Origin: Herbiconiux gentiana
GTDB taxonomy: Bacteria > Actinomycetota > Actinomycetes > Actinomycetales > Microbacteriaceae
Direction of reading: 5' to 3'
NCBI RefSeq assembly: GCF_024978135.1
Contig: NZ_JANTEZ010000004.1
Span: forward strand, 124,001-188,000
Length of the DNA: 64,000 bases
The translations under genes and the position numbers were made by a program. Of this stretch, positions 7,540 to 45,794 are shown in pieces. The first letter of the stretch is position 1. Every line of letters begins with the position of its first letter. The notes below the pieces were generated by a model, which was not told the DNA's origin, did no database searches, and saw only the letters and a list, made by a program, of their open reading frames with translations.

Positions 7540-7543
7540 GAAA

Positions 7544-7571
7544 ACCGGGGGCCGCCTCGACGACCCCCGGT
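7544..7571 (+). terminator. Rho-independent-like terminator after metX
   Basis: 8-bp stem ACCGGGGG/CCCCCGGT (7544-7551 and 7564-7571) with a 12-base loop, followed by GCATTT. Placed 4 bases after the metX stop. Confidence 0.65.
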
Positions 7572-7651
7572 GCATTTCCCCCCGGAACTGTGTCCAGCTT
7601 AGCGACAACTGTCGAGCTGCACACCGCCCCCGTTCTGGGGAGGCCCGCCTG

Positions 7652-7657
7652 TACTAT
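7652..7657 (+). promoter_or_regulatory. -10 box of the sensor kinase gene
   Basis: TACTAT lies 7 bases before the GTG at 7665, implying a leaderless transcript. No convincing -35 box. Confidence 0.5.
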
Positions 7658-7664
7658 TCAGACT

Positions 7665-10180: not shown

Positions 10181-10202
10181 GCCGGACAGAAGGAGACCTG
10201 TG

Positions 10203-10910: not shown

Positions 10911-10922
10911 GCGCTGCTCTTG

Positions 10923-10976
10923 TCGCTGGTGCGGCGCTGCTCGCCGGTGCGGCGTTACTCGCCCGTGCGGCGCTCG
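10923..10976. repeat. Three 18-base tandem units at a convergent junction
   Basis: Units 10923-10940, 10941-10958 and 10959-10976 share the form TCGCyGGTGCGGCGyT, with 2-4 changes between copies. The third and part of the second encode the last codons of the thiamine-binding protein; the first lies in the spacer. Confidence 0.75.
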
Positions 10977-11284
10977 AGAGCCGCTTCGAGGCGCTCGACC
11001 TTGCCGGTCAGCTCCCCCGTGTGCCCGGGGCGGATGTCGGCCTTCAGCACGAGCGAGACCCGCGAGCCGTAGGCGCCGACGGCCTCGGTCGCCCGCTTGA
11101 CGACGTCGAACACCTCGTCCCACTCGCCCTCGATGGTCGTGAACATCGAGTCGGTCGAGTTCGGCAGACCGGATGCCCGGACCACCTCGACCGCGGCGGC
11201 GACGGCGTCGTGCACGCTCGCCCCGTCGCCCTCACCCGCGGGAGACGCCCCGCCCGACGGTGCCACCGAAAACGCCACGAGCAT
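10955..11284 (-). CDS. Thiamine-binding / MTH1187-YkoF family protein
   Basis: A 109-residue single-domain protein beginning MLVAFSVAPSGG, with the typical STDSMFTTIEGEWDEVFDVV segment of the MTH1187 (DUF77) family in the middle. Members are small ferredoxin-like tetramers, some of which bind thiamine or its pyrimidine. The ATG follows a GGAAGGG ribosome-binding site. Its first 53 bases overlap the end of the glycosyltransferase gene, so the two are probably co-transcribed. Cytoplasmic; precise role unknown. Confidence 0.8.
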   Translation of the reverse strand: MLVAFSVAPSGGASPAGEGDGASVHDAVAAAVEVVRASGLPNSTDSMFTTIEGEWDEVFDVVKRATEAVGAYGSRVSLVLKADIRPGHTGELTGKVERLEAALERRTGE

Positions 11285-12536
11285 GCTGATCCGCCCTTCC
11301 TGATCCGTTTCTACTCTGCCACAGCATCATCACGGCGATCACGAGCATCGTGATGCTCAGCAGATTGCGCAGCGTGAGCACGGTGAGCATCACCGGGTCG
11401 AGCCCGAGGATGGCGTCGTAGGCGATCGGGTAGATCAGCTGGGTCAGCCCGCCCATCACGAACGCGAGCACGGCGGGCCAGAAGAACCGGCGCCCCTGCG
11501 TGACGATGCCCAGGATGATCGGGGCCGACAGCCACACCATGAACTGGGGCGACCCCACCTTGTTGAAGACGATCAGGGCCATCACGAGCGCGAGCGCGAG
11601 CGGCGGCAGCACGTGGGTCGCCGGAGCGCCCTTGCGCACGACGTAGACGGCGAACAGCAGGACGGCGGCCACGGCCACGACCAGCAGCGGGGTCATCAGC
11701 ATCGCGGCGACGTCGCTGCCCGGACCCGTCACCTGGAAGGTGAGGATCTCCATGTCGTAGTAGACCTGCGATCCGCCACCCGCGAAGGCCGACCAGAGCC
11801 AGAACACCGAGGCCGGCGCCTCGACCTGCATGCCGCGTCCGGTCTGCTCGGTGACGAAGCTGAAGGCGTTCATGCCCGCCCCGAGCACGAGCGCCCCGGC
11901 CAGCACCGCGACGAGGGTGACGGCCGCGGCGACGGCGGCGCGCATCCGTCGACGCAGCGTGATGACGACGGCCGCGATCATGGCGGCGGGCCAGACCTTG
12001 ACCCAGGTGGCGATCGCGAGCAGCACCCCGGCGAGCACCGGACGGTTGCGCGCCACCAGCAGGCCGGCGATCACGAGGTCGACGGTGATGATGTCGATGC
12101 GCCCGAGGGCGACCGGGCCGAGCAGCAGCAGGAAGAGCAGCCACCACCAGGCCGCGGCGAGCTTCAGGCGTTCGCCGGTCTCGAGCTCCCGGCCGTCCCG
12201 GCGACCCCGTGTGGTCAGGTAGGCGAAGATCGCCGCGTCCGCGATGCCGACCACGATCATCCACCCGATGCCGTAGAGGCCGGGGCCGAGCCCCATGGCC
12301 GCGAGCATCGGCACGAAGGCGAGGATCGGGTAGACCCACGGGCCGTCGATGCCGAGCCGGTAGCCGTCGAGCGATTGCTCGACCCAGCCCTTGTACACAC
12401 TGGTGACGTCGCCGAACGGCTGGTTGGGGTGCGTCAGCCCGTCGTAGCCGAGCCAGACGTGGAGGGCGAGGAAGGCCGCCCAGAGCACGAGGGGGTTGGC
12501 CGCGAGGCGGTGGAGGCGTGTCAGCACGAGGGTCAT
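11232..12536 (-). CDS. GT87-like membrane glycosyltransferase (DUF2029)
   Basis: A 434-residue membrane protein with about ten hydrophobic segments and an extracytoplasmic loop after the first, containing LGYDGLTHPN and DVTSVYKGWVEQ. The aspartate in the first loop and the general layout fit the polyprenol-phosphate-mannose dependent GT87/DUF2029 mannosyltransferases of actinobacteria, which elongate lipomannan-like glycolipids. I set the start at the ATG at 12536 (TLVLTRLHRL) rather than 22 codons upstream, where codons look non-coding. The C terminus is a basic hydrophilic tail. Substrate not determined. Confidence 0.7.
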   Translation of the reverse strand: MTLVLTRLHRLAANPLVLWAAFLALHVWLGYDGLTHPNQPFGDVTSVYKGWVEQSLDGYRLGIDGPWVYPILAFVPMLAAMGLGPGLYGIGWMIVVGIADAAIFAYLTTRGRRDGRELETGERLKLAAAWWWLLFLLLLGPVALGRIDIITVDLVIAGLLVARNRPVLAGVLLAIATWVKVWPAAMIAAVVITLRRRMRAAVAAAVTLVAVLAGALVLGAGMNAFSFVTEQTGRGMQVEAPASVFWLWSAFAGGGSQVYYDMEILTFQVTGPGSDVAAMLMTPLLVVAVAAVLLFAVYVVRKGAPATHVLPPLALALVMALIVFNKVGSPQFMVWLSAPIILGIVTQGRRFFWPAVLAFVMGGLTQLIYPIAYDAILGLDPVMLTVLTLRNLLSITMLVIAVMMLWQSRNGSGRADQHARGVFGGTVGRGVSRG

Positions 12537-30113: not shown

Positions 30114-30156
30114 CAACAACGTACGACAACGGCGCTGGTGGAGATGGGGGGAATTG
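30114..30156. repeat. att site, left copy (43-bp direct repeat)
   Basis: Identical over 43 bases to 45374-45416. It contains the T-arm and acceptor end of tmRNA (GGTGGAGATGGGGGGAATTG), i.e. the displaced 3' end of ssrA left by integration. Confidence 0.95.
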
Positions 30157-30189
30157 CGCTCTCAGCCATTACAGGCCAGTGATCACGCG

Positions 30190-30220
30190 GGACTAGGCCG
30201 CTTCAGTCCGCGCCTAGTCC
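30190..30220 (-). terminator. Hairpin overlapping the integrase stop
   Basis: 9-bp arms GGACTAGGC (30190-30198) and GCCTAGTCC (30212-30220) with a 13-base loop. The right arm includes the int stop codon. Could terminate int or be an arm-type integrase site. Confidence 0.4.
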
Positions 30221-31392
30221 GCAAGAGTGTCGGCCATGAGTCGCGAGAGAGCATCTTTCGCCCGCGAGTCGGGGCCACGGAACTGGGCCGCATAGACGTC
30301 GAGGGTGAGGCTCGGATTCTTGTGTCCGAGCTGGCGCTGCACGGTGACGACGTCGCATCCGGCTGCGATCATTCCGCCCGCCGCGTAGTGGCGGAGGTTG
30401 TGGAACTTGGTGTCGACGCCGGCTGCTCGGCGGGTGCGTGTCCACTCGGTCTCGAAAGCTCGGGGCCACATCGGTCCGACGCCACCGGGAGCTATGGGGA
30501 ACGCGACGTCGGCGAGCCCCGCCGGAAGCACCCGCCCGGGCAGCAGCCATCCAACCTCACCGTACGTGCCGTGCACGCAGATGTGCTCGCGGATGCGTTC
30601 GACGAGCTGCTCGGGAACGAGCACGTCTCGGACGGATCCGTACTTGGGCGGGCGGATCTCGATCGCTGTCGAGACTGAGGCGTCGCGCTGCACTTGCCGG
30701 CGGACACGGAGCACTCCCCCGGCCTGGTCAACGTCGGCGGCGGTGAGGCCGCAGATCTCACCTAGCCTGAGGCCAGCGAACGCGGCAATTGCAATGGCGA
30801 TGGCGAACGGGGTCCCCTCGGCGGTCGCGAGAAGCGCTGAGACGTCGTCAGAGGACGGGAAGGTTGGCCCGATCGAGTCGGGGGCGTCAGCGGCCGTTGA
30901 GCGGTTCCTGGTGAGCGCTGGACCTTTGACTCCGGTGGCGGGGTTGGAGGCGATGCGCTTGTCCAGCACGGCACCGTTGAAGATTGCCCCGAGGTGCATT
31001 AGCCGCGTCTTGACCGTTCGAGGCGCGAGCTTCCGGTCGACCATTGCCCGGACATAGGTCTCGACGTCGGCGCGGTGTATGGACTGAAGACGACGTCCGC
31101 GCATACCGCTGTCGTCGACCGCCAGACGCATCTGGCGATGTGTGGAGCTCTCCCAGTCCTTTCGAGCGGCCATCTCGTCGAAGTAGTCCCCGAGGGTGAG
31201 CCGTCCACGGTCGGGCGTGACGTACTGCCCAGTATGAACGGCAGTCGTGACCTGATCGAGCCAGTGCTGTGCGGAGTTCTCAGGGTCGCGTGGGTTGTTC
31301 TTGAACTTGAAGTGCCGGGCGTGTTCTTTGCCGTCCGCATCACGGTATCGGGCACGCCACTTACCGTCAGGGCGTTTCTGAATGCTCGACAC
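30214..31392 (-). CDS. int: Tyrosine-type site-specific integrase
   Basis: A 392-residue tyrosine recombinase. The N-terminal arm-binding-like domain (SIQKRPDGKWRARYRDADGK) is followed by a SAM-like core-binding domain at about 65-160 and the catalytic domain. Catalytic residues: Arg in GLRLGEICGL near 212, His/Arg in HNLRHYA near 335, His in LGHKNPSLT and the nucleophile Tyr in LDVYAAQF near 367. It lies 58 bases inside the left att copy, as expected for an element inserted in tmRNA. It starts within the end of the repressor gene (26-base overlap), so int is expressed from the repressor transcript. Confidence 0.95.
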   Translation of the reverse strand: MSSIQKRPDGKWRARYRDADGKEHARHFKFKNNPRDPENSAQHWLDQVTTAVHTGQYVTPDRGRLTLGDYFDEMAARKDWESSTHRQMRLAVDDSGMRGRRLQSIHRADVETYVRAMVDRKLAPRTVKTRLMHLGAIFNGAVLDKRIASNPATGVKGPALTRNRSTAADAPDSIGPTFPSSDDVSALLATAEGTPFAIAIAIAAFAGLRLGEICGLTAADVDQAGGVLRVRRQVQRDASVSTAIEIRPPKYGSVRDVLVPEQLVERIREHICVHGTYGEVGWLLPGRVLPAGLADVAFPIAPGGVGPMWPRAFETEWTRTRRAAGVDTKFHNLRHYAAGGMIAAGCDVVTVQRQLGHKNPSLTLDVYAAQFRGPDSRAKDALSRLMADTLAD

Positions 31393-31915
31393 GCCTTTTT
31401 CTCACCGCCTCGATGATCTCGGTGGTCTCAGCTATCGGGTCTATCGCCACGAACCGAGTCATGTTGTGACGAAGCATTTCCAAGATCGGCCGCGAGTCTT
31501 CATGGAGCGTTGACCCGTCGCCGAACAACTCTTCAAGGCGTTCTAGATCGTTCGAGACGCGCGCTTGCGCCTCGGCCATCTCTCGCGCTCCCTCTTTCAG
31601 CTTCACGTACGACCCCCTGCCGTGCTTGTGGTTCGACGCGGCAATCTGAATAAATTTCTCTCTCGAGTCTGGATGAATCAACAGACTGGTGCTTCTCCCG
31701 AAGATTTGGGCGAAGGCCTGCGCTTCCATCATGCGAACAGGGCGAGTTGCCTTCTCGATCCGCGAAATCGTGGATTGCGTGACATAGGCCAGGGACTGCT
31801 GCTGCATACGCTCGGCCAGGTCGGCTTGCGTCCACCCATTTTCCTCTCGCAATATCCGCACCTGCTCGGCAAAGCGGCGCTCGTCTCTGGACAGGGTGTT
31901 TTCTTCGGAAGGCAC
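31367..31915 (-). CDS. XRE-family repressor of the element
   Basis: A 182-residue regulator with an XRE helix-turn-helix at about 15-75 (RFAEQVRILREENGWTQADLAERM, TQSTISRIEKATRPVRMMEAQAFAQIFG). A helical C-terminal half of unknown type follows. As the first gene of the leftward operon, divergent from the excisionase, it is the probable lysogeny-type repressor of the element. I place the start at GTG 31915, 6 bases after TATGAT (leaderless); a TTG at 31948 would add 11 residues. Confidence 0.85.
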   Translation of the reverse strand: MPSEENTLSRDERRFAEQVRILREENGWTQADLAERMQQQSLAYVTQSTISRIEKATRPVRMMEAQAFAQIFGRSTSLLIHPDSREKFIQIAASNHKHGRGSYVKLKEGAREMAEAQARVSNDLERLEELFGDGSTLHEDSRPILEMLRHNMTRFVAIDPIAETTEIIEAVRKRRVEHSETP

Positions 31916-31996
31916 GCCGCAATCATATTCGCTAGAGATCCCAATCAAAATCGGCTATGCTCGATTGCGTACAGTCAATCTCAATCCTGAATGGAG
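31916..31996. promoter_or_regulatory. Divergent switch region between repressor and excisionase
   Basis: Leftward: TATGAT (31922-31927 on the minus strand), 6 bases before the GTG at 31915. Rightward: TATGCT at 31955-31960, and a GGAG ribosome-binding site at 31993-31996 for the gene at 32002. An inverted repeat GATTG-N8-CAATC lies downstream of the rightward box and could be an operator. Confidence 0.5.
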
Positions 31997-32001
31997 ATGT
32001 T

Positions 32002-32184
32002 GTGACCAAGCTCCTCACCTTGGCGGAAGCAGCCGAACGGCTGCGCAAATCGGAGGCTCAGATCCGATGGATGATTCACCGCGGGACCGCACCCGGTTCG
32101 GCACTGATCGGCGGGAGACGGATGTTCCGTGAAGATCAGATCGACGCCTGGATCGAGGCTCAGTTCGCCCGGGAGGCCTCTTAG
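32002..32184 (+). CDS. Excisionase-family DNA-binding protein
   Basis: A 60-residue winged-helix protein of the MerR/excisionase class: LLTLAEAAERLRKSEAQIRWMIHRGTAPGSALIGGRRMFREDQIDAWIEA. The family bends DNA at att sites to favour excision, or acts as a small activator (AlpA-like). GTG at 32002 has a GGAG site 5 bases upstream; the upstream ATG at 31957 lies in the promoter. First gene of the long rightward operon. Confidence 0.82.
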   Translation: MTKLLTLAEAAERLRKSEAQIRWMIHRGTAPGSALIGGRRMFREDQIDAWIEAQFAREAS

Positions 32185-33393: not shown

Positions 33394-33906
33394 TTGACAG
33401 ATACACGACTACCCGCCCGGTGGCTCACTGACCCCATCATGGACGGCCTTAGTGACAAAGCGTGGCGGACCTTCACCGGCTCGCTTATGTGGTCGAACGA
33501 GGCGGGAACCGATGGGTCTATTCCAAGACGCGCGATGCGGTTTCTGCACCCTGAAGGGGTAGACGCTCGAACACTGGGTGAGCTCGTGGAGGCCGATCTC
33601 TGGCGACCCAATGGCGACGCGATCGTCGTACCCGATTGGGAACGGCGCATGGGTCAGGAGCTTGCGACCGTCGTCGAGGCGAGGCGAGAGAACAACAGAC
33701 TCCGGCAACGGAAGGCGAGAGCCAAAGCCAAACCCTCCTTCCCTGTACCGGGTGACGTAACGCGTGACGTAACGGGCTCGACGGAGGACAGGACAGGCGA
33801 GGAAAGGACAGGACAGGACAGGCAATTAGGCGAGCGCGAAGAAGCAAACGATGGGCGGGTAATCGACTGGCCAACGGCGACGCCCGGAAGGAAGGAAGCC
33901 AGTTGA
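33394..33906 (+). CDS. Phage-type replication organiser-like protein
   Basis: 170 residues. The first 90 (LPARWLTDPIMDGLSDKAWRTFTGSLMWSNEAG...IPRRAMRFLHPEGVDARTLGELVEADLW) have the winged-helix plan of phage replication initiators/organisers, with a basic helical stretch (NNRLRQRKARAKAK) after it. The tail is encoded by a pentanucleotide repeat. The TTG start is justified by an extended ribosome-binding site, AAAGGAGGTGA, 6 bases upstream. It may recognise the direct repeats within its own gene as an origin. Assignment rests on layout, not on a named motif. Confidence 0.55.
   Translation: MTDTRLPARWLTDPIMDGLSDKAWRTFTGSLMWSNEAGTDGSIPRRAMRFLHPEGVDARTLGELVEADLWRPNGDAIVVPDWERRMGQELATVVEARRENNRLRQRKARAKAKPSFPVPGDVTRDVTGSTEDRTGEERTGQDRQLGEREEANDGRVIDWPTATPGRKEAS
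33752..33773 (+). repeat. Direct repeat GTGACGTAAC, iteron-like
   Basis: GTGACGTAAC at 33752-33761 and 33764-33773 (12-base period) inside the replication-like gene; a possible replication-origin element. Confidence 0.5.
33786..33825 (+). repeat. Pentanucleotide tandem array
   Basis: Eight 5-base units: GGACA, GGACA, GGCGA, GGAAA, GGACA, GGACA, GGACA, GGCAA. Unit length is not a multiple of three, so slippage would shift the reading frame of the gene's C terminus. Confidence 0.75.
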
Positions 33907-33937: not shown

Positions 33938-34342
33938 ATGCCAGCGCGGGAACCAGAGTCATACCTTCACGGCGGCTCAGCCCCGGTAGTGGTGGTCCCT
34001 GCACGAGTCGCAGCCTGGCTCTACCGGACGTGCGACCTCGACCGCCACCGCATAGATGTGCGGGGCGCTGACGCGGAGATCAGCAACGTGCTCGTCGCGC
34101 TGAAGGTCGCCGGCCTCAGCTGGGTCGCTTCCGCAACCGGAACCCAGCCTGCAACCAAGGCGGAAGCCGAGCGAACATCAACATCAGTAGGCACCGCAAC
34201 CGCAGCTCAACTGCTCCACATCACACCCCGAGCAGTACGACTCGCGATCGCAGAACACCGCCTCACCGCAACACAGATCGACGGGAGATGGACTATCGCC
34301 CGCGAAGACCTCGAACACTACCGACAAAGGAGAACACCATGA
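33938..34342 (+). CDS. Helix-turn-helix protein of the element
   Basis: 134 residues. The C-terminal third (TATAAQLLHITPRAVRLAIAEHRLTATQIDGRWTIAREDLEHYRQRR) is an excisionase/MerR-like helix-turn-helix. The N-terminal two thirds (APVVVVPARVAAWLYRTCDLDRHRIDVRGADAEISNVLVALKVAG) is an unidentified domain. ATG at 33938 is 9 bases after GGGAGG; the GTG at 33917 is less likely. Its stop overlaps the next start (ATGA). Confidence 0.65.
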   Translation: MPAREPESYLHGGSAPVVVVPARVAAWLYRTCDLDRHRIDVRGADAEISNVLVALKVAGLSWVASATGTQPATKAEAERTSTSVGTATAAQLLHITPRAVRLAIAEHRLTATQIDGRWTIAREDLEHYRQRRTP

Positions 34343-34875
34343 GCCTTGAAGCACTTGACCAGCAGATCGAAGCAGTGCGAGCTCGAGCTAAGAGCCTTCA
34401 GAAGACCATCGGGGATGACCAGAAGGCGATCGAGAACAACCCCAACCTCTCACCCGAGGGCCGCAAAGCCGACCTCGCAGAGATGAAGGAAGCAGCGCGG
34501 TCGCGAATGGCATCGATTCGAGCCGAAGAGAACAAGCTCGCGACTGACAGGCGTGACTCGCTGCGCCGCACCGTGATGGGAACAGTCGGCTACGACTCGA
34601 GTTCCATCATCAGCTACCGAGACGCCCAGGACCGCGCCGCGAAGCTCGCCGACCGAGACGACGCCGCCCGAGTCATGGAACGCGCACTCACCAGCGGTGA
34701 CAAGGCGCTCGCATCGGCAGTCGCCGAGGTCGCACTCGACCGCGGCTACCGCGACGTCTACAACTCCTACGCATCCGCCAACCCGGCCATCGCGGAAGCG
34801 GCGAAAGACCTCGCAGTCATGGAGCACTACTTCACATCCGGTGGCATGGCACGAGCCCTCGCCTACATGGTGTGA
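34339..34875 (+). CDS. Hypothetical coiled-coil protein, scaffold-like
   Basis: 178 residues. Residues 1-80 are highly charged and helical (LDQQIEAVRARAKSLQKTIGDDQKAIENN...), a likely coiled coil. The rest is alanine-rich helical. The size and position before terminase-like genes resemble scaffolding or head-accessory proteins, but no capsid gene is present, so this is only a hint. AAGGAGA precedes the ATG, which overlaps the previous stop. Confidence 0.5.
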   Translation: MSLEALDQQIEAVRARAKSLQKTIGDDQKAIENNPNLSPEGRKADLAEMKEAARSRMASIRAEENKLATDRRDSLRRTVMGTVGYDSSSIISYRDAQDRAAKLADRDDAARVMERALTSGDKALASAVAEVALDRGYRDVYNSYASANPAIAEAAKDLAVMEHYFTSGGMARALAYMV

Positions 34876-35123
34876 CCGTGACCGGCACAGACAACACAAC
34901 GGGCACCGTGACGATCGGACGGCACACGCTCACCCTTCCCGAGGAGCAGGCTCGAGCGCTGTTCCTCGCCGCCGGCTACGCATCTAAACGATCCGCAGCC
35001 CTCGTCATCAGCCCAGACATCACCACAGTGGTGAAACCCGGCACCGAAGTGAGCATCACCATCACCGGCGGATTCACGGAAGAGCACGACCCAACACGCG
35101 CTGGTGTGATGAGACGCATGTGA
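34872..35123 (+). CDS. Hypothetical small protein of the element
   Basis: 83 residues, not recognised. Alternating strand-forming residues (GTVTIGRHTLTLPEEQARALFLAAGY, GTEVSITITGG) suggest a small mixed alpha/beta fold. GTG start overlaps the previous stop by 4 bases. It is followed by 155 bases without a gene, up to the terminase small subunit. Confidence 0.5.
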   Translation: MTVTGTDNTTGTVTIGRHTLTLPEEQARALFLAAGYASKRSAALVISPDITTVVKPGTEVSITITGGFTEEHDPTRAGVMRRM

Positions 35124-35626: not shown

Positions 35627-35844
35627 GGCGGCGCGAGAAGGTCGCGAAGAACGGCGGTCTGCCGGCTCGTCTGGCTGTGTTCGATCAGGAGCGGTGGGAG
35701 GGCCGCGACGACGCCGAACGTTACGCCCAGTGGATGCGCGCCCGCAACGCGTGGGCTGAGGCCCGCGGCATTGAAGTTCTGCCTGGCGATGATGAGGCGT
35801 GGGCTGCCTTCCCGGATGGGGTGTTCCGCCCAGAGGACATCTAG
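35623..35844 (+). CDS. Hypothetical small protein after TerS
   Basis: 73 residues, charged and Trp/Ala-rich (RDDAERYAQWMRARNAWAEARGIEVLP). No family recognised. Coupled to TerS by ATGA, so it may act with it; in phages this position often holds HNH or small packaging accessory proteins, but no HNH motif is visible. Confidence 0.5.
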   Translation: MRRREKVAKNGGLPARLAVFDQERWEGRDDAERYAQWMRARNAWAEARGIEVLPGDDEAWAAFPDGVFRPEDI

Positions 35845-35899
35845 CCCACAATCCTGGTGAGTCAAACGACTCACCTGCCCCGGCGAGACAAGGAGAGAC

Positions 35900-36265
35900 G
35901 TGACAGACCAAGACCAACCGGACAAGCCGCTTACGTGGATCGTGGGGAGCGATGGTGAAGAGATCCTGATCGACAAGGAGCGCTTTGATGCGGACGTGAA
36001 ACGGATCTCGGCCGGCTTGCTGCTTGCCTTCGATGAAAGCAAGCGCAAGCACCTTGCGAGCCAGTATTTGGCGGAGATTCACGTCGCGCAGAAGTCGCCT
36101 GACTACACGCGGGTTGTCCTGCATGAGTCGTTGAAGTTGATGTCTTTCTACCTCGCGGAGGAGGCGAATACGTTCCAGATGCCGATCATCCTCAAGAACA
36201 TCAACCACCTCCTACTCATGTACCGGCGAGTCCGCCCCGACGAGAACGGCGTTATTCCTCAGTAG
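35900..36265 (+). CDS. Hypothetical protein upstream of the tape measure gene
   Basis: 121 residues, mostly helical (ADVKRISAGLLLAFDESKRKHLASQYLAEIHVAQKS). Not assigned. The position directly before the tape measure gene is that of tail assembly chaperones, but no frameshift extension exists and a terminator separates the two genes, so I do not call it one. GTG at 35900 with AAGGAG 4 bases upstream. Confidence 0.5.
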   Translation: MTDQDQPDKPLTWIVGSDGEEILIDKERFDADVKRISAGLLLAFDESKRKHLASQYLAEIHVAQKSPDYTRVVLHESLKLMSFYLAEEANTFQMPIILKNINHLLLMYRRVRPDENGVIPQ

Positions 36266-36309
36266 GTAACCCTCGCCGCTCTGAGAGTGGGGAATTTCCC
36301 CATTCTTCC

Positions 36310-36347
36310 GCCCCGACACCCAACACCGGGTGTTGGGGCTTTCTTTT
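36310..36347 (+). terminator. Canonical intrinsic terminator before the tape measure gene
   Basis: 12-bp stem GCCCCGACACCC/GGGTGTTGGGGC with one G-T pair (36310-36321, 36328-36339), followed by TTTCTTTT. It isolates the tape measure gene from the upstream operon. Confidence 0.85.
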
Positions 36348-36408
36348 GCCCATCCGATGTATTCAAACCCGTATTTCAAAACGAATTCAAACACAAGGAG
36401 TGACCCCC

Positions 36409-39192
36409 ATGGCCGATCGCGTCGTGAAAGTAACCCTCTCCGCTCAGGTGAGCAACTACCTGGCTGCTATGGAGCAGGCCCGAAAGAAGACTGTCGACTT
36501 CGCCGATTCAGCAAACAAGGAGATCGGAAAAAGCTCCACAAGTATTCGCGAGCTGAGCGGCGGCATGCTCGCCATCGGTGCTGCTGCGGGCGCTGGCGTC
36601 GCCCTGGCCGTGAAGAAGTTCGCTGACTTTGATCAGCAGCTCTCAGCGGTGAAGGCCGCAACACACGAGTCCGCCGAAAACATGGATCTACTGCGCGACG
36701 CCGCGCTCAGAGCGGGGGCATCGACGGTCTATTCCGCGACGGAGGCCGCTCAGTCGATCGAGGAACTTTCGAAGGCTGGTATCTCAACCGCTGACGTTCT
36801 TGACGGAGGGCTGACCGGAGCGCTCGACCTCGCGGCAGCGGGAAACCTGGAAGTTGCTGACGCTGCGGGTATCGCGGCGACGGCTCTGCAGACCTTCGGG
36901 CTGAAGGGTTCGGACGTCTCTCACGTCGCCGACTTACTTGCCGCCGGTGCGGGCAAGGCGATGGGTGACGTAACCGATCTCGCCGCCGCGCTAAACCAGG
37001 GCGGTTTGGTTGCCCAGCAGACGGGCCTCTCGATCGAAGAGACTACCGCCGCGCTTGCTGCATTCGCCTCTAAGGGCCTGCTGGGGTCTGACGCTGGTAC
37101 GTCGTTCAAGACGATGCTGCAGTCTCTTACGCCGTCGTCCGCGGAGGCGCGAGAGGCGATGGAAAAGTACAACCTGACCGCCTACGACGCACAGGGCCAG
37201 TTCATCGGGCTCGAGGCGTATGCCGGGAAGCTCAAGGACGGTCTCAGCGGTCTGACGACTGAGCAGCAGAACGCGACCCTCAAGACGATCTTTGGAGCGG
37301 ATGCGGTTCGGGCGGCGTCGGTTCTGTACCAAGAGGGTTCCGAAGGCATCAGAGAGTGGACGGAGGCCGTCAATGATCAGGGCTATGCCGCGGAGACTGC
37401 CGCGACACGACTCGACAACCTGAACGGTGACATTGAGGCTCTGGGCGGTGCCCTCGATACTGCGCTCATCGAAACGGGGTCGAGCGCGAACGACGTTCTC
37501 CGTGATCTCGTGCAGAACGTCACTGACGCCGTCGACGGGTTCAACGACCTCCCCGACCCGGTCAAGGACGCCATTCTCGGCGTTGCCGGCTTCACCGCGG
37601 GAGCCGGGCTGCTGGCCGGCGCTGCAGGGTTCGGTGTCGTCAAGCTGGCCGAGCTCCGCGACGCATTCACCACGATCACCACCCAGATGCCGATCACCGG
37701 GCGGGCACTGTCTGGGGTCGCGAATGTCCTCACCGGCCCGTGGGGACTCGCCATCGCCGCCGCAAGCGTTATCGGCCTTCAGTTCCTGCAGATCAACGCC
37801 GACCAGCAGCAGGCCGTAGATGACCTGTCCGCGTCTTTGGACGAGAACACCGGGGCGTTCACGAAGAACACCCGCCAGCTCGTCATCAACCAGCTTGAGG
37901 CAGACGGCACCTTCAACCTGGCCCGCAAAGCAGGAATCGGCCTGGACATCGCAACTGACGCTGCGCTCGGGAACCGTGACGCCATGGCCCAAGTGGATGC
38001 CATCGCACAGAAGTACGCCGCCACAGTCAAAGACGGCGATTTCGACATCTTGGGAGACATCAACCAGGACCAGTACCAGACCCTCACGGATCGGCTGAGC
38101 GGTCAGAACGAGAAGCTGTCCGAGGCTCAGGCGCAGTGGCGGGACAACAAGGAGGCAATGGGTGACGCCGGCGAAACCGCCGACGACACCGCCATAGCGA
38201 TCGAGGGTGTCGGAACCGTTTCGCAGAAGGCCGCGGACGACATCAACGCCCTCGCCGATCAGATCCTAGGGTTCGGAAAAGCGAACCTCGATACTCGCGA
38301 TGCGACCCGGCAGTTCGAGCAGGCAATTGATGACATCGAAGAGGCGATGGGTGCAGAGGGCTGGACCGCGACCCTTGACGACTCGGAAGCAGCCGGACGT
38401 GCCAATAACGAGATGCTGGACAGCCTCGCATCATCCACGCTGGCCCTGTCGTCAGCGATCGTCACTCAGACCGGAGACACCGAGGCAGCGCGGGACGCGA
38501 TGGAGAAGGGTCGAGCGGAATTCATTAGCACCGCCACCGAGATGGGGCTCACCGAGGACGCGGCCAAGGCACTCGCCGATCAGGTTGGGCTCATCCCGAC
38601 CGACGTCGTGACAAACGTGACCCTGACCGGTGCCGAAACGATGAGCGACAGGATCGCCTCCATCGTTTCGTTCTGGGAGGCCCGCGGAATCAACATCCCC
38701 GCCTATGTCATCCGACAGGACGAAGCTGCAGCGAATCGAGGTCCAGACGGGTACGCGACGGGCGGGCCGATTTATGGCCCCGGTTCCGGCACCTCCGACG
38801 ACATCATCATTCGCGCATCCAACGGCGAGTACATGATTCGAGCGTCTGAGGCTAGTTCTCACCGAGCTCTGCTTGATGGGATCAATGGAGGCTTGGGAGC
38901 TGTCGGGTTGGCTTCCCTCGCCGCCCAGGACGCCGCGACGAATGGTCTTTACCCGTCCACCTCGATGGACCTGGCCTCAGCCGCCGAGATCTACGGCGTC
39001 AACGACGCCGCACTCAGGTACGGAACGCCAGTGCAGCCCACCTACGTGACTGCGGGAGGTGCGGCCGCGGGCAGTGGTAGCAACGTCACGTTCAATCAGA
39101 CGATCAATCCATCTACGGCGATGTCGGAGGAACTAATTGGCCGGTCGGCCGCCGCCTATGCAACCAGGAAACTGCGGGGACGGATGGCATGA
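36409..39192 (+). CDS. Phage tail tape measure protein
   Basis: A 927-residue TP901-type tape measure protein. The conserved core is at about 120-310 (LQTFGLKGSDVSHVADLLAAGA, EETTAALAAFASKGLLGSDAGTSFKTML, FGADAVRAASVLYQEG), followed by hydrophobic segments near 400-460 and a long helical stretch. The C terminus (GGPIYGPGSGTSDDIIIRASNGEYMIRASE) is typical of actinophages. In a phage it sets tail length and takes part in DNA ejection. ATG at 36409 follows ACAAGGAGTGA. It is the only tail gene in the element and is bounded by terminators on both sides, an unusual state. Confidence 0.9.
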   Translation: MADRVVKVTLSAQVSNYLAAMEQARKKTVDFADSANKEIGKSSTSIRELSGGMLAIGAAAGAGVALAVKKFADFDQQLSAVKAATHESAENMDLLRDAALRAGASTVYSATEAAQSIEELSKAGISTADVLDGGLTGALDLAAAGNLEVADAAGIAATALQTFGLKGSDVSHVADLLAAGAGKAMGDVTDLAAALNQGGLVAQQTGLSIEETTAALAAFASKGLLGSDAGTSFKTMLQSLTPSSAEAREAMEKYNLTAYDAQGQFIGLEAYAGKLKDGLSGLTTEQQNATLKTIFGADAVRAASVLYQEGSEGIREWTEAVNDQGYAAETAATRLDNLNGDIEALGGALDTALIETGSSANDVLRDLVQNVTDAVDGFNDLPDPVKDAILGVAGFTAGAGLLAGAAGFGVVKLAELRDAFTTITTQMPITGRALSGVANVLTGPWGLAIAAASVIGLQFLQINADQQQAVDDLSASLDENTGAFTKNTRQLVINQLEADGTFNLARKAGIGLDIATDAALGNRDAMAQVDAIAQKYAATVKDGDFDILGDINQDQYQTLTDRLSGQNEKLSEAQAQWRDNKEAMGDAGETADDTAIAIEGVGTVSQKAADDINALADQILGFGKANLDTRDATRQFEQAIDDIEEAMGAEGWTATLDDSEAAGRANNEMLDSLASSTLALSSAIVTQTGDTEAARDAMEKGRAEFISTATEMGLTEDAAKALADQVGLIPTDVVTNVTLTGAETMSDRIASIVSFWEARGINIPAYVIRQDEAAANRGPDGYATGGPIYGPGSGTSDDIIIRASNGEYMIRASEASSHRALLDGINGGLGAVGLASLAAQDAATNGLYPSTSMDLASAAEIYGVNDAALRYGTPVQPTYVTAGGAAAGSGSNVTFNQTINPSTAMSEELIGRSAAAYATRKLRGRMA

Positions 39193-39207
39193 AATCAGGC
39201 GGGGGGT

Positions 39208-39228
39208 GTGTCCACCTTGGGCGGACAC
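39208..39228 (+). terminator. Hairpin after the tape measure gene
   Basis: Arms GTGTCCACC and GGCGGACAC (one mismatch) with a 3-base loop, 15 bases after the stop; followed by TTCTCCC. The rest of 39193-39395 holds no gene I can support. Confidence 0.55.
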
Positions 39229-39395
39229 TTCTCCCGACCTGCATGCCGCAATCCCTCTGCCACTGCTTGCACAATCGGGTCATGCGATGAGTACGGCCCA
39301 TCTCTTTAGGACAAGCAGAGTCGTCAGTTCAAGCTGAGCGGCCGTCGCGCCCGCGATGTGGGAGTTGAAGTGTTAGCTCGCAGTAGGATCCCCTC

Positions 39396-39866
39396 ATGCG
39401 CATCGCGAACGCTCTAGCAGCGGAATCCGTGAACGTAGCGGTGCCGCCGGAGTTCTGGTGGGGTCTCATCGGATCACTTCTCGTTGGCCTCGCAGGGTCG
39501 CGAGTTATCAGTGCCCTAGTCAACAACTCGTGGAAGTCCAGTTCCAGGCGGAGAACTAACAACCGCAAAGATGCGAGTGCCACCCTGGAAGCTTTGCGCC
39601 GTGGTCGAAACGCGTATCGAAAGTACGGCAGCGGGGGTAAGGCTGTGGATTCCAAGAGGGATGCGCATTTAGATGAGATCTACACCGACATCATCATCTC
39701 GGCCGCTCGCACTACCGACGCAGAGGTAGTGGAGCTCGCCAAAAAATACATCGAGGTCGGCCAAAAGTACGCCTCAAAGGACGTCTTCACCAGCACCGAA
39801 CACGAGGAAGTTGCATTCATCGCGGTGGTGGAACGTATCCGCGAATTCTCACGGAAGAAAAACTAG
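39396..39866 (+). CDS. Membrane-anchored hypothetical cargo protein
   Basis: 156 residues. A single hydrophobic segment near the N terminus (FWWGLIGSLLVGLAGSRVISALV) is followed by a strongly basic stretch (KSSSRRRTNNRKD) and a soluble helical domain of about 100 residues. No family recognised. Its last 4 bases overlap the end of the convergent STAS-like gene. One-helix membrane proteins are common effectors in defence cassettes, but that role is inferred from position only. Confidence 0.6.
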   Translation: MRIANALAAESVNVAVPPEFWWGLIGSLLVGLAGSRVISALVNNSWKSSSRRRTNNRKDASATLEALRRGRNAYRKYGSGGKAVDSKRDAHLDEIYTDIIISAARTTDAEVVELAKKYIEVGQKYASKDVFTSTEHEEVAFIAVVERIREFSRKKN

Positions 39867-40165
39867 AACAGAGCGACGTCTTGCTGCGTTCCCAGCCGAA
39901 CGCTGTCAAGCTTCCGACGGGCCGCTGCGTTCTTGATGTCGTTCTCGAAACGGCCGGGTGTTCCGACCAGGATAATGTCCCCGGCATGACGAGCAGAGAG
40001 CTGCTTCAGCAACTCATCGGCGAATGAGATCGTCGATGTCGCGAGGCTTCGGCCAAGGATGTATACGTCTGCGCCAGCGAGTTCCACTGGAATCTGCTTT
40101 TGCTCGAGTAGCTCAGTTGCAGCTTCCCGGGTTCCCACAAGGCGCGGTAGCTCAATCTTGAACAT
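39863..40165 (-). CDS. STAS-like domain protein (DUF4325 type)
   Basis: 100 residues. The central segment STISFADELLKQLSARHAGDIILVGTP fits the STAS-like DUF4325 fold (S-x-S-F-A-D-E-L core). Such proteins resemble anti-sigma antagonists but usually pair with a GHKL ATPase, as here with the gene at 40254. ATG at 40165 is preferred (AAGGG upstream); a start at 40186 would add 7 residues. It may have its own promoter in the 88-base spacer. It probably acts as the partner or switch of the ATPase. Confidence 0.7.
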   Translation of the reverse strand: MFKIELPRLVGTREAATELLEQKQIPVELAGADVYILGRSLATSTISFADELLKQLSARHAGDIILVGTPGRFENDIKNAAARRKLDSVRLGTQQDVALF

Positions 40166-40191
40166 GATCACGACCCTTACCAACAAATAAA

Positions 40192-40238
40192 GGCACTGTC
40201 AAATAGTGCCACGTTTATTATCTCACACCATAGTGTGA
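40192..40238 (-). promoter_or_regulatory. Palindromes and possible promoter of the STAS-like gene
   Basis: In the spacer: TCACAC-CATA-GTGTGA (40223-40238), then an extended -10-like TGAGATAAT read on the minus strand, then the hairpin GGCACT-N7-AGTGCC (40192-40210) followed by TTTATTTGTT. This suggests an operator, a promoter and an attenuator between the two genes. Confidence 0.45.
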
Positions 40239-40253
40239 CGCCTTCCCTGGACG

Positions 40254-41042
40254 CTACTTGATTGGAACGAACCCGTGGATGAGCACTCCTTGCACTGACC
40301 GTTCGAAGTCTCTCCTGACCGGCCCGGTGGGACTCTCTATGTGAAACCCCGTGCCGGAGGTTATCGCGATGTTGCCACCAATAGCGACTAGCCCATCGGT
40401 CATGTCTCGAACGCCATAGCCCCTGCCGTCTTCGTCGATGGCTGACACGCCCTCTTCGAGTGCCAGCTGGATTGCGGAAAGATCGTCTGTCGCACCCTTA
40501 TGCGCGAGAGATGCTCGGAGCCCCCGTCCCGCATCTCCAATTGCGAACCGAAATCTAGTCTTGTTGTGCGTCATTTGGGCGGCGAAGTAGCCGACGTTGC
40601 GTCCAGAGTGATACTGAACGTTGTTTCCCGCTTCGCATACGCAGACGTAGAGCGACGCCGCCAGGTCTTCGTCGATGCGTTCGCACAATCCGTGAAGTTG
40701 TGCTCCAAGATCTGCCACTTCCGCGGAGTTAGAAAATAGGGTCAGCTCAGCTAAGGCGTTCCCAACATTGTGCTCGCGCACGTGAGGCAGGTCGTGAGGT
40801 ACTCCGAGGTCAGTCAGGAACTGTCCGAGTCGCATGCGGGCAAGGTAATTCGATACATCACCGCTCTGGGGACGGATGAACACGGGATCGACACCCTGCT
40901 GCACTATTCGATCAATTTCCATGGCGACTAGAACGGTCGACCCAGGGGTAATGAATGTCACGCGAGTCAGGTCGACGATGTTGGAGTCATCTAAGTAGGA
41001 AGGGCCGGAGTGTGTTCCGTTGCCAAAGAGCTTGATGCCCAA
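40254..41042 (-). CDS. GHKL-type ATPase with N-terminal STAS-like region
   Basis: 262 residues. The C-terminal half is a Bergerat-fold ATP-binding domain: N box E137-x3-N141-x3-H145 (EAGNNVQYH), G1 box DAGRG at 170-174 and G2 box GRGYG at 206-210. There is no kinase His domain, so it resembles anti-sigma kinases rather than sensor kinases. Residues 20-100 (NIVDLTRVTFITPGSTVLVAMEIDRIVQQG) look like a STAS-like fold. TTG start with an excellent AGGAGGTGG site 5 bases upstream. Likely to phosphorylate or hold the STAS-like protein in a partner switch; biological target unknown. Confidence 0.75.
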   Translation of the reverse strand: MGIKLFGNGTHSGPSYLDDSNIVDLTRVTFITPGSTVLVAMEIDRIVQQGVDPVFIRPQSGDVSNYLARMRLGQFLTDLGVPHDLPHVREHNVGNALAELTLFSNSAEVADLGAQLHGLCERIDEDLAASLYVCVCEAGNNVQYHSGRNVGYFAAQMTHNKTRFRFAIGDAGRGLRASLAHKGATDDLSAIQLALEEGVSAIDEDGRGYGVRDMTDGLVAIGGNIAITSGTGFHIESPTGPVRRDFERSVQGVLIHGFVPIK

Positions 41043-41167
41043 CTTCCCACCTCCTGAATTTATTCGACAACTATGGCATCCAGCGGCATCCGCGAGCGTC
41101 GCTAGTCGTGTTTGGCGCGAGTGAAACCGCCAATGAGTCCGCAGCGAAGGCGTGCCACACTTGCACC

Positions 41168-42982
41168 GTGATTAGTGGCTTGGGTCTGCGTGGGTACCGG
41201 AGTTTCCGCAGGGAAGACATTCAGCGGGTGGGGCCAATGTCGAAGCTCCACCTCCTGGTGGGGCAGAACAATAGCGGCAAGTCAAATGTTCTAAGAGTTG
41301 CCCAGAGGTATCTACCACTACTCCGGAAACAGGAGTTTCGCCGTCCGACTGATCTTGATCTGCCGAACGACTACGACGGCAGCGTTGAATTCGCGCTCTC
41401 TATCTCTGCTGATGTTCGAGGTGCTTTGGAAACCAAGCTCAGAAGCGAAGAGATACCCGACCACCAATTACTGCAGCAGCTTCTGGAGCTTGATGCCTTG
41501 CTGTCGCTGCCGGCATTCCGACCTGTGGGCCCGCGGGGAGACCCTTGGTTCGACTTCGAGTCGGGCCCGGGGATGGGTAAGGAGCCTCTGGTTTCGTCAG
41601 CGCAGATGCAAACGGCCGCAGAGCAGTACAGCGCATATTGGAGTGAGCTCGACTACTCGGAGCGGCAAATGCGCCACGGCCTTGCTGCCCTGCTCGCTTC
41701 GTACAACGTCGGCACGAATCTCAACCAGGCCGCAAAGTTTCGAGCGTTGATTAGCCAGATCGCACGATCAATTCCTGTGCCGGCAGTTTCGACGATCGCC
41801 GCATTTCGCCAGATTCGCGACGCCGACGACGGGGTCATTGATCACAGCGGGATCGGCTTAATCAAGCGCTTGGCGCGCCTAGAGAACCCCCTCCTCGATG
41901 GTTACGAGGAAAACGCCGAAAAGTTTGAAGCTATAAATCGCTTCACGCGTATAGTCCTCGAGGATCCGACGGCCCGACTCCGCGTACCAGCTACTCAGGA
42001 CGACATCCTGGTCCAAAGCCGAGGCCGGGTCCTGCCCTTGGACAGTCTAGGAACGGGCGTTCACGAGGTCATCATTCTGGCAGTTGCGGCCACGATTCTT
42101 GATGGCGAACTGGTCTGTATTGAGGAGCCGGAGGTCCACCTGCACCCTCTGATGCAGAAACGTCTTCTGCGTTACTTAGCGACCGAAACCTCGAATCACT
42201 ACCTGATCGCCACCCACTCGGCTCACATACTCGATTCGAGCATCGCCTCTATATCTCACGTGCAACTCGAATCTGGCGGCTCGACTATTGACGCAGCAGT
42301 TTCGCCGACGGATGTTTGGAAGATTGCCACCGATCTCGGGTTCCGAGCCTCGGACATTGTGCAATCGAACGCCGTCATCTGGGTCGAGGGGCCCTCGGAT
42401 CGGATCTACTTGGAGTTCTGGCTGCGCACCGTCGATCCACACCTAACTGAAGGTGTGCACTACTCGATCATGTTTTACGGAGGCAGGTTGCTTTCCCAGC
42501 TCGACGCAAGCCAGCGCGAAATTACCGAATTCATCTCTCTACGACGGTTGAATCGCAATCTGGTCGTTCTAATCGACAGCGACAAGAAGTCTCCCCGAGC
42601 GCCGCTAAACGCAACGAAGCGTCGGATCGTTGAGGAGTTCGAGGATTCTGCCGGCGGTTTCGCCTGGGTTACCGCTGGCCGTGAGATCGAGAATTATGTG
42701 CCGGCCGAATTGCTGAACGCGGCGTTTGAAGCCACTCACCCATCCAGGGCGGCCACTTGGGATGGTGGGCGGTACTCGAAGCCCCTCGAGGGTGCGCCAA
42801 TTCTCAGCGGTTCGCCGGACAAGAACGCAATTGCGCACTTTGCAGTCGAGCACTGGAGTTATCGAGAGCCGACATTAGATCTGAAGAAGCAGATCCGCCG
42901 TCTAGCGTCCGAGCTGCGAAGAGTGAATGATCTGCCGAAGGTCGATTACAAAGGACCTTTCGTCGCCGTGCCAACTTCGTGA
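41168..42982 (+). CDS. OLD-family ATPase/TOPRIM nuclease
   Basis: About 605 residues. N-terminal ABC-like ATPase: GLRGYRSFRR, Walker A GQNNSGKSN (32-40), a signature-like LDSLGTGVHEV, Walker B CIEEPEVHLHP near 317 and the H-loop ATHSAH. A C-terminal TOPRIM domain has its Glu at 406 (WVEGPSD) and Asp pair at 470/472 (LIDSDK). OLD proteins of phage P2 and related defence proteins cut DNA and block phage growth. No adjacent helicase is present, so this is the stand-alone class rather than a Gabija pair. GTG 41168 is preferred; GTG 41108 would add 20 residues. Confidence 0.87.
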   Translation: MISGLGLRGYRSFRREDIQRVGPMSKLHLLVGQNNSGKSNVLRVAQRYLPLLRKQEFRRPTDLDLPNDYDGSVEFALSISADVRGALETKLRSEEIPDHQLLQQLLELDALLSLPAFRPVGPRGDPWFDFESGPGMGKEPLVSSAQMQTAAEQYSAYWSELDYSERQMRHGLAALLASYNVGTNLNQAAKFRALISQIARSIPVPAVSTIAAFRQIRDADDGVIDHSGIGLIKRLARLENPLLDGYEENAEKFEAINRFTRIVLEDPTARLRVPATQDDILVQSRGRVLPLDSLGTGVHEVIILAVAATILDGELVCIEEPEVHLHPLMQKRLLRYLATETSNHYLIATHSAHILDSSIASISHVQLESGGSTIDAAVSPTDVWKIATDLGFRASDIVQSNAVIWVEGPSDRIYLEFWLRTVDPHLTEGVHYSIMFYGGRLLSQLDASQREITEFISLRRLNRNLVVLIDSDKKSPRAPLNATKRRIVEEFEDSAGGFAWVTAGREIENYVPAELLNAAFEATHPSRAATWDGGRYSKPLEGAPILSGSPDKNAIAHFAVEHWSYREPTLDLKKQIRRLASELRRVNDLPKVDYKGPFVAVPTS

Positions 42983-43644: not shown

Positions 43645-44127
43645 TTAGAGCAGCGGGAGGCTGCCAGAGACTGACGAATAGCCCGAAGCCGACATAGTCA
43701 GGGTCGCTACCGGTGGTGGCGACTGGTCGGGGTCGTTCTTACCGAGGATGAGCAGAAGTGGTCCGGCCGTGTCCCCTGCTGGGACCGATGCGTTGTAGAC
43801 GAAGGTGTAGGACTCACCGGTGGGATCGTCAGGGCCGTAGTTCCAGGCGATGTCGCCGCTGAACCCGCTGAACCAGAACCCGTTCAACGGAAGGTAAGCC
43901 GTCAAAGCTCCGGCCGGGATAGCGGCAGCACCCTCGTTGGTCGCTCGGATCACGAAGCTGGTGCGGTTCTCGTAGGGGGACGGCGGGGATACCTCGAGCG
44001 ACAACTGAGAGAGCGGGGCGCTCGCTGCCATCGCCGGCACTGCTGTGGCGGCGACGATGACCGGTGTTGCCCAGACAGCTCCGATCACAGTTCGACGGTT
44101 GATCGCGCGGGGCTCGTGCTTGGCCAT
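43645..44127 (-). CDS. Tat-exported secreted protein of unknown function
   Basis: 160 residues. The N terminus has a twin-arginine signal: INRRTVIGAVWATPVIVAATAVPAMAAS, with likely cleavage after AMA near 33. The mature part is strand-rich, about 125 residues, with SQLSLEVSPPSPYENRTSFVIRATNEG resembling an Ig-like/conserved-repeat surface domain. No catalytic motif. ATG lies 6 bases after TAGTCT, so leaderless. As element cargo it would alter the host's surface. Confidence 0.65.
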   Translation of the reverse strand: MAKHEPRAINRRTVIGAVWATPVIVAATAVPAMAASAPLSQLSLEVSPPSPYENRTSFVIRATNEGAAAIPAGALTAYLPLNGFWFSGFSGDIAWNYGPDDPTGESYTFVYNASVPAGDTAGPLLLILGKNDPDQSPPPVATLTMSASGYSSVSGSLPLL

Positions 44128-45373: not shown

Positions 45374-45416
45374 CAACAACGTACGACAACGGCGCTGGTG
45401 GAGATGGGGGGAATTG
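45374..45416. repeat. att site, right copy (43-bp direct repeat)
   Basis: Identical to 30114-30156. Positions 45396-45416 are the CCA end, acceptor strand and T-arm part of tmRNA, so integration restores a full ssrA gene. Confidence 0.95.
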
Positions 45417-45794
45417 AACCCCCGTCCACTACTGTGATTCCGCGCCTTCTACGGGTGTAGCCAGTACAGGCGTTCTGCTCGGCCCCGACCTTTGCTACTG
45501 GCACCTAGGTCGACGGGCCCAGTCACAGTTGAAGTCCCACGTGACCCTGAGACACAGTCACGCAGCAATCTCTCTAGATAATGCCGGAACCCGGGTAGAG
45601 AGCATTCCCGGACCGACAGTTGCTATTTAGCTAGGAAGGAAGACCTAGGCCGCGAGGGCGAAGGTGGCCTTCTTGGCCGCAACAGTGCTGTTTGAATTGG
45701 CACTTATGTTTTGCGGAGGGCGTTAACGAGATAACCCCGCATCCTCGGCCCGCTTCTCGCAGTTTCGCAGGCAGTGTCGAAACCGATCATCCCC
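45396..45794 (-). ncRNA. ssrA: Transfer-messenger RNA
   Basis: A 399-base tmRNA. The 5' end GGGGATG (from 45794) pairs with 3' CATCTCC next to ACCA (45396), giving the 7-bp acceptor stem. The T-arm GGGGGTTCAATTCCCCC is intact. The tag frame at 45645-45701 encodes ANSNSTVAAKKATFALAA and ends in TAG. tmRNA rescues stalled ribosomes with SmpB, whose gene lies 2 kb away. The CCA is encoded. The 3' end is the attachment site of the 15-kb element. Confidence 0.97.

Follow-up and report, generated by a model that had tools for sequence, protein, structure and literature searches.

Why would a mobile element carry an intact gene for a tail tape measure protein (TMP) and no gene for a tail tube around it? 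This question is raised by the gene at 36409-39192 of a 64,000-nucleotide stretch of Herbiconiux gentiana DNA (contig NZ_JANTEZ010000004.1; the whole stretch is referred to here as the window), where it forms part of a 15.3-kb element inserted at ssrA, the transfer-messenger RNA (tmRNA) gene. TMPs set tail length and help DNA cross the cell envelope (PMC5099701; PMC1796659). Our analysis confirmed that the TMP gene is an orphan. Judged by sequence, the element has the anatomy of a satellite and an intact TMP gene, its relatives repeatedly hold TMP genes without tail-tube genes, and these genes have been exchanged many times with phages. We think it probable that the satellite TMP would replace the TMP of a helper phage in chimeric tails, as in the phage-inducible chromosomal island-like elements (PLEs) of Vibrio cholerae.

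The tape measure gene and the element that carries it

The TMP gene and its flanking signals are as follows.

36409-39192, plus strand: orphan TMP gene, with matches to PF10145, phrog_1533 and the structure chain 9g8s_w
36310-36339, plus strand: intrinsic terminator between g35900 and the TMP gene, a 12-bp stem followed by a T-rich tail
39196-39241, plus strand: hairpin 3' of the TMP gene, identified by folding energy

The open reading frame (ORF) encodes 927 amino acids and is open from its ATG, without frameshift or internal stop, and AAGGAG lies 8 nt upstream of the ATG, which bears out the full-length, unshifted gene with its own ribosome-binding site described in the original prediction. 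The protein belongs to PF10145 (2.8e-46; 158.4 bits against a cut-off of 33.2, with all 201 model positions covered) and to the tape measure family phrog_1533 (1.1e-109), and it matches the solved tape measure chain 9g8s_w (2.8e-20). The gene had also been described as insulated by terminators, with a canonical one before it and a hairpin after it. The upstream terminator is genuine (-26.6 kcal/mol, z -6.0) and was also listed by the terminator scan; the downstream hairpin is present as well (-31.1 kcal/mol, z -4.6), but it has no T run and was absent from that list. A promoter scan of 35800-39500 found no sigma-70-like promoter.

The limits of the element are given by a direct repeat pair of 59 nt at 30114-30172 and 45374-45432, set 15260 apart and 88% identical; by reading, the two copies agree fully over their first 43 nt. 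The sites and genes of this region are listed below, where HTH denotes helix-turn-helix.

30114-30156, no strand: attL, 43-bp core of the direct repeat pair
30214-31392, minus strand: tyrosine integrase (PF00589, 5.7e-19; phrog_1, 1.8e-52)
31367-31948, minus strand: HTH repressor-like regulator (PF13560, 7.6e-12)
31957-32184, plus strand: HTH_17 excisionase/regulator-like protein (PF12728, 2.4e-12; phrog_66, 2e-9)
33394-33906, plus strand: replication initiation protein (phrog_2447, 6.5e-13)
33938-34342, plus strand: g33938, HTH_17 protein, satellite marker 2 (PF12728, 8.6e-7; longest ORF from 33917)
34339-34875, plus strand: g34288, all-helical protein, satellite marker 1 (178 aa from the ATG at 34339; longest ORF from 34288)
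34872-35123, plus strand: g34872, small conserved satellite protein with relatives in L067, L068, L097 and L100
35279-35626, plus strand: terminase small subunit (TerS; phrog_1496, 5.6e-20)
35900-36265, plus strand: g35900, small helical protein, candidate TMP partner, whose profile members all lie in TMP-bearing loci
45374-45416, no strand: attR, 43-bp core repeat, overlapping the 3' end of ssrA
45396-45794, minus strand: ssrA (tmRNA gene), its 3' end overlapped by attR

The rightward run thus begins with the HTH_17 protein and other small proteins, continues through the replication initiator, g33938, g34288, g34872, TerS, g35623 and g35900, and reaches the TMP gene, beyond which lies cargo that includes an OLD/GajA/AriA-like ATPase.

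To search for structural genes, hidden Markov models (HMMs) were built from three annotated phages (Footloose, Hum25 and ChuckDuck) and from full prophages, and were run first on called genes and later on six frames. In the six-frame search, no match was found in the element for the terminase large subunit (TerL), portal, capsid, neck, tail terminator, major tail (tube), tail assembly chaperone or Dit-like proteins; of all structural HMMs, only those for TerS and TMP matched. The lack of tube and chaperone genes reported earlier was therefore reproduced. As TerL, portal, capsid and tail tube are missing, the element cannot form virions alone. It has an integrase, att repeats at ssrA, its own regulators, a replication initiator and TerS, so that it looks like a phage satellite, as the original prediction had supposed. 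The major capsid, portal and TerL genes that define capsid-forming phage-inducible chromosomal islands (cf-PICIs) are absent. Nor are there the broken remnants of several structural modules that would mark a decaying prophage: the TMP and TerS genes are open and complete, and the six-frame search found no trace of the other structural genes modelled. Near-identical DNA of the element was not found in phage or plasmid collections.

Tape measure genes without tail-tube genes in related elements

The window TMP was searched in a family sample of 398 genomes (code f1, Microbacteriaceae by inference; one genome per species) at E<=1e-20, with no more than two candidates scored per genome, so that the resulting count is a lower bound. 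Matches in 32 genomes corresponded to at least 34 genes (36 rows, two genes having two rows each), and the neighbourhoods of all 34 were read. Half of these genes (17/34) lie near genes for a major tail protein and a tail assembly chaperone, 12 of them in one phage type and 5 in another; the other 17 lie in loci without a major tail protein. Retention of the TMP without a tail-tube gene in related elements, the check proposed in the original prediction, was thus observed, and the contrary case that it had named, a TMP found always within a full tail operon, does not hold.

Together with L059 and L063 from a genus search, and L011, these 17 make up a set of 20 orphan-TMP loci, which includes the window, L105 (TMP split) and L059 (contig ending inside the TMP gene); L014 and L015, from an early locus search, were left out of the counts. 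The six-frame search matched the major tail protein in 17/17 full loci, a value fixed by construction because those loci also trained the structural HMMs, and in 0/20 orphan-TMP loci. The orphan loci likewise gave no match to TerL, portal or neck proteins. TerS was matched in nine of them, the chaperone in two (L103 and L155), a scaffold in two (L099 and L103), a capsid homologue in one (L157) and a fibre-like protein in one (L059). A one-piece TMP gene without a tail-tube gene is present in 18/20 loci, L105 and L059 being the other two. Because the arrangement recurs in 19 loci besides the window, it is more than chance.

The marker gene g34288 connects many of these loci. Its product was searched and modelled without the first Met. 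The window sequence has no match in Pfam, PHROGs or 50,697 phage records, and neither g34288 nor g33938 occurs in the 17 full prophage loci; relatives of g33938 are present in many satellite loci. A five-sequence profile of g34288 found 22 loci in 21 of the 398 family genomes. Ten of these hold a one-piece TMP, nine of the window class and one, in L101, of another class (1224 aa; phrog_58, 4.1e-57). The TMP gene of L105 is split, L100 has only a 169-aa fragment, and no TMP was seen in the remaining ten, as judged by the window-class HMM and by reading of large ORFs. The original prediction had named absence or degradation in sister elements as a reason to abandon it, and this case applies in part. 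As no TMP was seen in 10/22 marker loci, while one has a fragment and one a split gene, the TMP gene is an optional, exchangeable cassette and not a fixed core gene.

A wider search with a 20-row profile found g34288 in 16 of 394 genomes of the class sample, in families f1, f11, f24, f26 and f34, and 14 of the 15 new marker places were fetched, a weak match in G517 being left out. A large TMP gene follows the marker in 7/14 of these loci, all outside f1 and spread across f11, f24, f26 and f34. PHROGs confirmed all seven TMPs, with phrog_10780, 934, 3547, 305 and 4197 as best families. No TMP was seen in the other seven, one of which, L190, carries TerS and TerL (7297-9284). A viral-contig scan with g34288 matched six contigs, and one with g35900 found no relative.

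Might the TMP gene be a passenger, either left over from a decayed prophage or caught by chance recombination? The marker loci in which no TMP was seen, the fragment in L100 and the split gene in L105 would fit, and so would the sister elements L067 and L097. Their shared segments are 82-96% identical and include a recombinase-like gene (label by reading), and the stretch of L067 that carries the TMP gene and g35900 (about 6,900-12,457) has no match in L097, which indicates that the morphogenesis part behaves as an exchangeable cassette. A passenger is at odds, however, with the one-piece TMP genes without tail-tube genes in 18/20 orphan loci, in L101 and in seven class-sample loci, with the entry of several TMP classes into the same slot, and with the absence of the marker genes from the prophage loci and of the window marker from the phage records. 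We regard this explanation as unlikely.

The AlphaFold2 model of g34288 is all-helical and confident (mean pLDDT 91.9), and gave no informative structural match. In two loci g34288 appears as two neighbouring genes (L180, 9216-10185; L179, 9989-10941). Marker loci L104, L108, L109, L110, L113 and L114, in which no TMP was seen, form a subtype that instead carries primase-like genes together with a resolvase-like gene (214-226 aa), labels that were given by reading. The g35900 profile has seven members, counting that of the window, and each lies in a TMP-bearing locus: 7/20 orphan-TMP loci hold one, against 0/10 TMP-less marker loci of the family sample, numbers that are small. Its model is a small helical bundle (mean pLDDT 80.5). 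It was considered as a candidate tail assembly chaperone, and did not match the chaperone HMMs of two phage types. Foldseek returned no match at E<=0.001 in the Protein Data Bank or viral models, and a second fold search found common helical arrangements only (best Z 9.4, 81 residues, 2.4 A).

Exchange of tape measure genes between phages and satellites

To relate satellite and phage TMPs, two quick maximum-likelihood trees of 47 and 42 rows were made with SH-aLRT support only, five long rows being excluded from the second. Of 42 viral loci, nine are annotated, and five of those nine served as phage rows; the other 33 were left out. Satellite and phage TMPs are mixed in both trees, with 13 label changes each, of which well-supported branches require no fewer than 10 and 9, respectively. 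Shuffled labels gave means of 15.4 and 13.8 changes, so the labels are hardly clustered. The mixing indicates that TMPs moved many times between phages and satellites. The trees do not give a direction, but since it is the phages that possess the complete tail operon, it is simpler to suppose that satellites captured the gene.

The window TMP is sister, with full support, to the TMP of prophage L058 from the same genus (62-63% identity over aligned columns; 66% over residues 1-797), and shares 45-54% identity over parts with Microbacterium phage Footloose and Arthrobacter phages Hum25 and Pitbull. In Footloose, Hum25 and L058 the TMP gene sits in a full tail operon, whereas the window TMP gene has no tail tube gene beside it. 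Comparison with L058 gave dN 0.33 and dS 1.65, which would suggest a protein under constraint, although dN/dS is a weak test here because dS is near saturation. A hydrophobic segment is present in 20/20 orphan TMPs and in 27/27 phage TMPs.

Over its last 120 residues the window TMP is only 23% identical to L058, against 66% elsewhere (ratio 0.34). An exchanged C-terminus as a satellite trait was considered and rejected, as the ratios of hand-picked pairs overlap: 0.34-0.98 in nine satellite-phage pairs and 0.47-1.42 in nine phage-phage pairs, with four of five satellite-satellite pairs at 0.59-0.67 and one without an aligned tail.

A change in tail length, which the original prediction had named beside altered DNA delivery, is not supported by these data as the chief role of the TMP. 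The window TMP (927 aa) is longer than its nearest phage relative (902 aa), and median lengths of 917 aa for satellite TMPs (18 rows, L105 and L059 dropped) and 984 aa for phage TMPs (27 rows) overlap widely. Satellite TMPs are somewhat shorter (Mann-Whitney p 0.025, with rows that are not independent), a shortening that is suggestive at most. As lengths differ little, we favor control of entry, or escape from factors that target the TMP, over a change in length.

Some relatives carry other tail genes, either close to the TMP gene or where it would otherwise stand. A tail fibre protein is found in L063 (phrog_4201, 5.5e-78), tail-spike-like proteins are found in L100 and L111 (phrog_7458, 7e-6 and 8e-5), tail C-terminal-like proteins in L105 and, more weakly, in L115, and fibre-like proteins in L059 and in L107 and L187, the latter two without a TMP. 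A minor tail protein (phrog_7565, 8e-168) is encoded in L185. In L068 the TMP gene is followed by genes of 416 and 303 aa; these, a 573-aa gene in L106 and a 212-aa gene in L103 have no PHROG match and look tail-fibre-like by eye only. The class-2 TMP of L155 has a class-2 chaperone (3e-54) two genes away, which would be expected if the components have to suit a single type of helper.

Head genes appear as well. L157, an orphan-TMP locus with TerS, has a major capsid homologue (7424-8275; 3e-11) and no portal or TerL match, an arrangement reminiscent of the SaPI homologues that redirect capsid shape (SaPI, Staphylococcus aureus pathogenicity island). Short head-scaffold homologues (phrog_233) occur in the orphan-TMP satellites L099 (9423-9788; 1.4e-9) and L103 (10740-11186; 4.2e-10) and are possible capsid-size factors.

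Proposed chimeric tails, known satellites and cargo

How might such an element use its TMP? We infer that there is a helper, that TerS directs packaging, that the TMP enters particles and that the satellite benefits. Growth of a siphophage helper would trigger excision and replication of the satellite, whose TerS would direct helper packaging to satellite DNA, while its TMP would be built into tails instead of the helper's, with tube, tip and capsid taken from the helper. The benefit would probably lie in controlling how DNA enters and in not relying on the helper TMP, a target of assembly blockers and entry-stage defences. Tail blockers that target the TMP include Tab (PMC10884400) and Rta (PMC12987554), and the entry-stage nuclease SNIPE acts through it (PMC13190303).

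Since TMP-dependent tail assembly is a known weak point, for which Tab and Rta speak, the satellite TMP might instead poison or titrate helper tail assembly and cut helper yield while going unused in satellite particles; recombination with phages would preserve its likeness to the target. This is improbable in our judgement. Full-length TMPs with hydrophobic segments point to a working entry device, as do the TMPs of L184 (5485-9471) and L185 (5207-9283) in family f11, whose transglycosylase-like domain (phrog_29757) would suit passage through the cell wall; furthermore, tail-fibre or tailspike-like genes lie near the TMP in several relatives.

A precedent for replacement of the helper TMP in chimeric tails exists. 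The PLEs of V. cholerae build chimeric tails with their own TMP, and deletion of tmp loses most transfer (2026, PMC12987554); the form of piracy that the original prediction had called new has thus already been described. The benefit of the chimeric tail is left open in that paper, putative tmp genes are mapped there in PLE-like elements and cf-PICIs (Extended Data Fig. 10), and the words actinobacteri-, Mycobacter- and Microbacter- are absent from its main text. PLE11 and other PLEs, with TMP, TAC and BhuB, resemble the elements described here in combining a satellite-encoded TMP with the helper's tail tube, and in a TMP that is family-wide in differing sequence groups; a satellite TMP without a tail tube is likewise what the genes of the window element present. 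By contrast, the hosts here are different (Microbacteriaceae by inference), the TMP is of siphophage type, TerS is present, and the TMP is optional and repeatedly exchanged with phages, with tail-fibre genes in some relatives. The window element itself has no recognisable chaperone or hub.

Phage-inducible chromosomal islands (PICIs) of the SaPI type with TerS are similar in other respects: a size of about 15 kb, an integrase at one end, divergent regulators, a replication gene, TerS and a tRNA-like site. The integrase, divergent regulators, replication initiator and TerS are all found in the window element. SaPI-type elements redirect capsid and packaging (PMC10690885), and a TMP is not among the PICI features in the text covered, whereas the window element has one. 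The cf-PICIs and the Mulch/Flayer satellites of Streptomyces (PMC10690885) and the Mycobacterium candidate PICIs (PMC10654092), several of which come from actinomycetes, need the tails of a helper or contribute tail pieces, such as the tail fibre encoded by MiniFlayer (PMC10690885). They encode capsid and packaging genes, the Mycobacterium candidates being defined by a major capsid gene (PMC10654092), whereas the window element has none of those capsid genes. No actinomycete satellite with its own TMP, and no "orphan tape measure", was found among the papers listed in the literature covered, which left out most subscription papers and all bioRxiv preprints. What is new here is a satellite family that is modular and apparently separate.

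Several observations weigh against replacement of a helper TMP. PLEs encode a chaperone of their own and PLE11 also encodes a baseplate hub, neither of which is recognisable to six-frame HMMs in the window element. The ten family and seven class-sample marker loci in which no TMP was seen, the split and fragmented genes and the near-saturated dS count on the same side. Neither a second PF10145 TMP nor a match to phrog_2, a TerL family, was found in the genome, so that a resident helper of this type was not apparent.

Beyond the window, a more tentative proposal, somewhat less likely to be right than wrong, is that actinomycete satellites combine a conserved regulatory and marker core with a morphogenesis cassette that can be exchanged (a TMP, alone or joined by tailspike, scaffold, TerS or chaperone) and that is repeatedly recaptured from local phages. 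Chimeric virions would then have satellite-set entry and, in some members, adsorption, and g35900 would be a satellite-only TMP partner that helps exclude the helper TMP. The position of 17/34 family TMP genes outside tail operons, and their origin from several phage types, suggests tail remodelling as a general satellite strategy. The natural variants (TMP only, TMP with tail fibre, no TMP) allow the gain to the satellite to be asked about directly, whether it is the entry route, escape from TMP-targeting defences or interference with the helper.

The cargo beyond the TMP gene comprises the following.

39396-41042: accessory genes, namely a membrane-type protein (plus strand), a small protein at 39863-40186 (minus strand; STAS-like by reading) and a HATPase protein at 40254-41042 (minus strand; PF13581, 1.8e-5; phrog_3364, 1.5e-19)
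41108-42982, plus strand: OLD/GajA/AriA-like AAA ATPase (PF13304, 1.4e-17; PADLOC AriA 6.8e-20, GajA 7.9e-19)

The ATPase, with a weak OLD-like_TOPRIM match (0.078) below the cut-off, is a probable anti-phage defence gene without a clear partner gene. Its presence, together with the contacts that TMPs make at injection with inner-membrane proteins and SNIPE (PMC13190303), could suggest that the TMP acts outside virions, in superinfection control or host immunity, perhaps by baiting a defence that works at the entry stage. The TMP gene adjoins the TerS part and lies outside the cargo block, and no PADLOC model matches it; this explanation is very unlikely, and incorporation into chimeric tails remains our preferred reading.

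Some minor features complete the description of the element. The window TerS has matches in 172 phage records (tblastn). The product of 31957-32184 shares 73% identity over 62 aa with its counterpart in L068. A gene at 43645-44127 encodes a small secreted-type protein of unassigned function, whose start is twin-arginine-like. Finally, the pair of small STAS-like (by reading) and HATPase-type genes beyond the TMP gene (window, 39863-41042) is also seen in L099 (4473-5715) and L100 (4593-5776); with similarity judged by eye, it seems to recur at this position in three or more satellites. In the window and in L099 it has a membrane-type protein beside it, and the pair is possible defence or sensing cargo.

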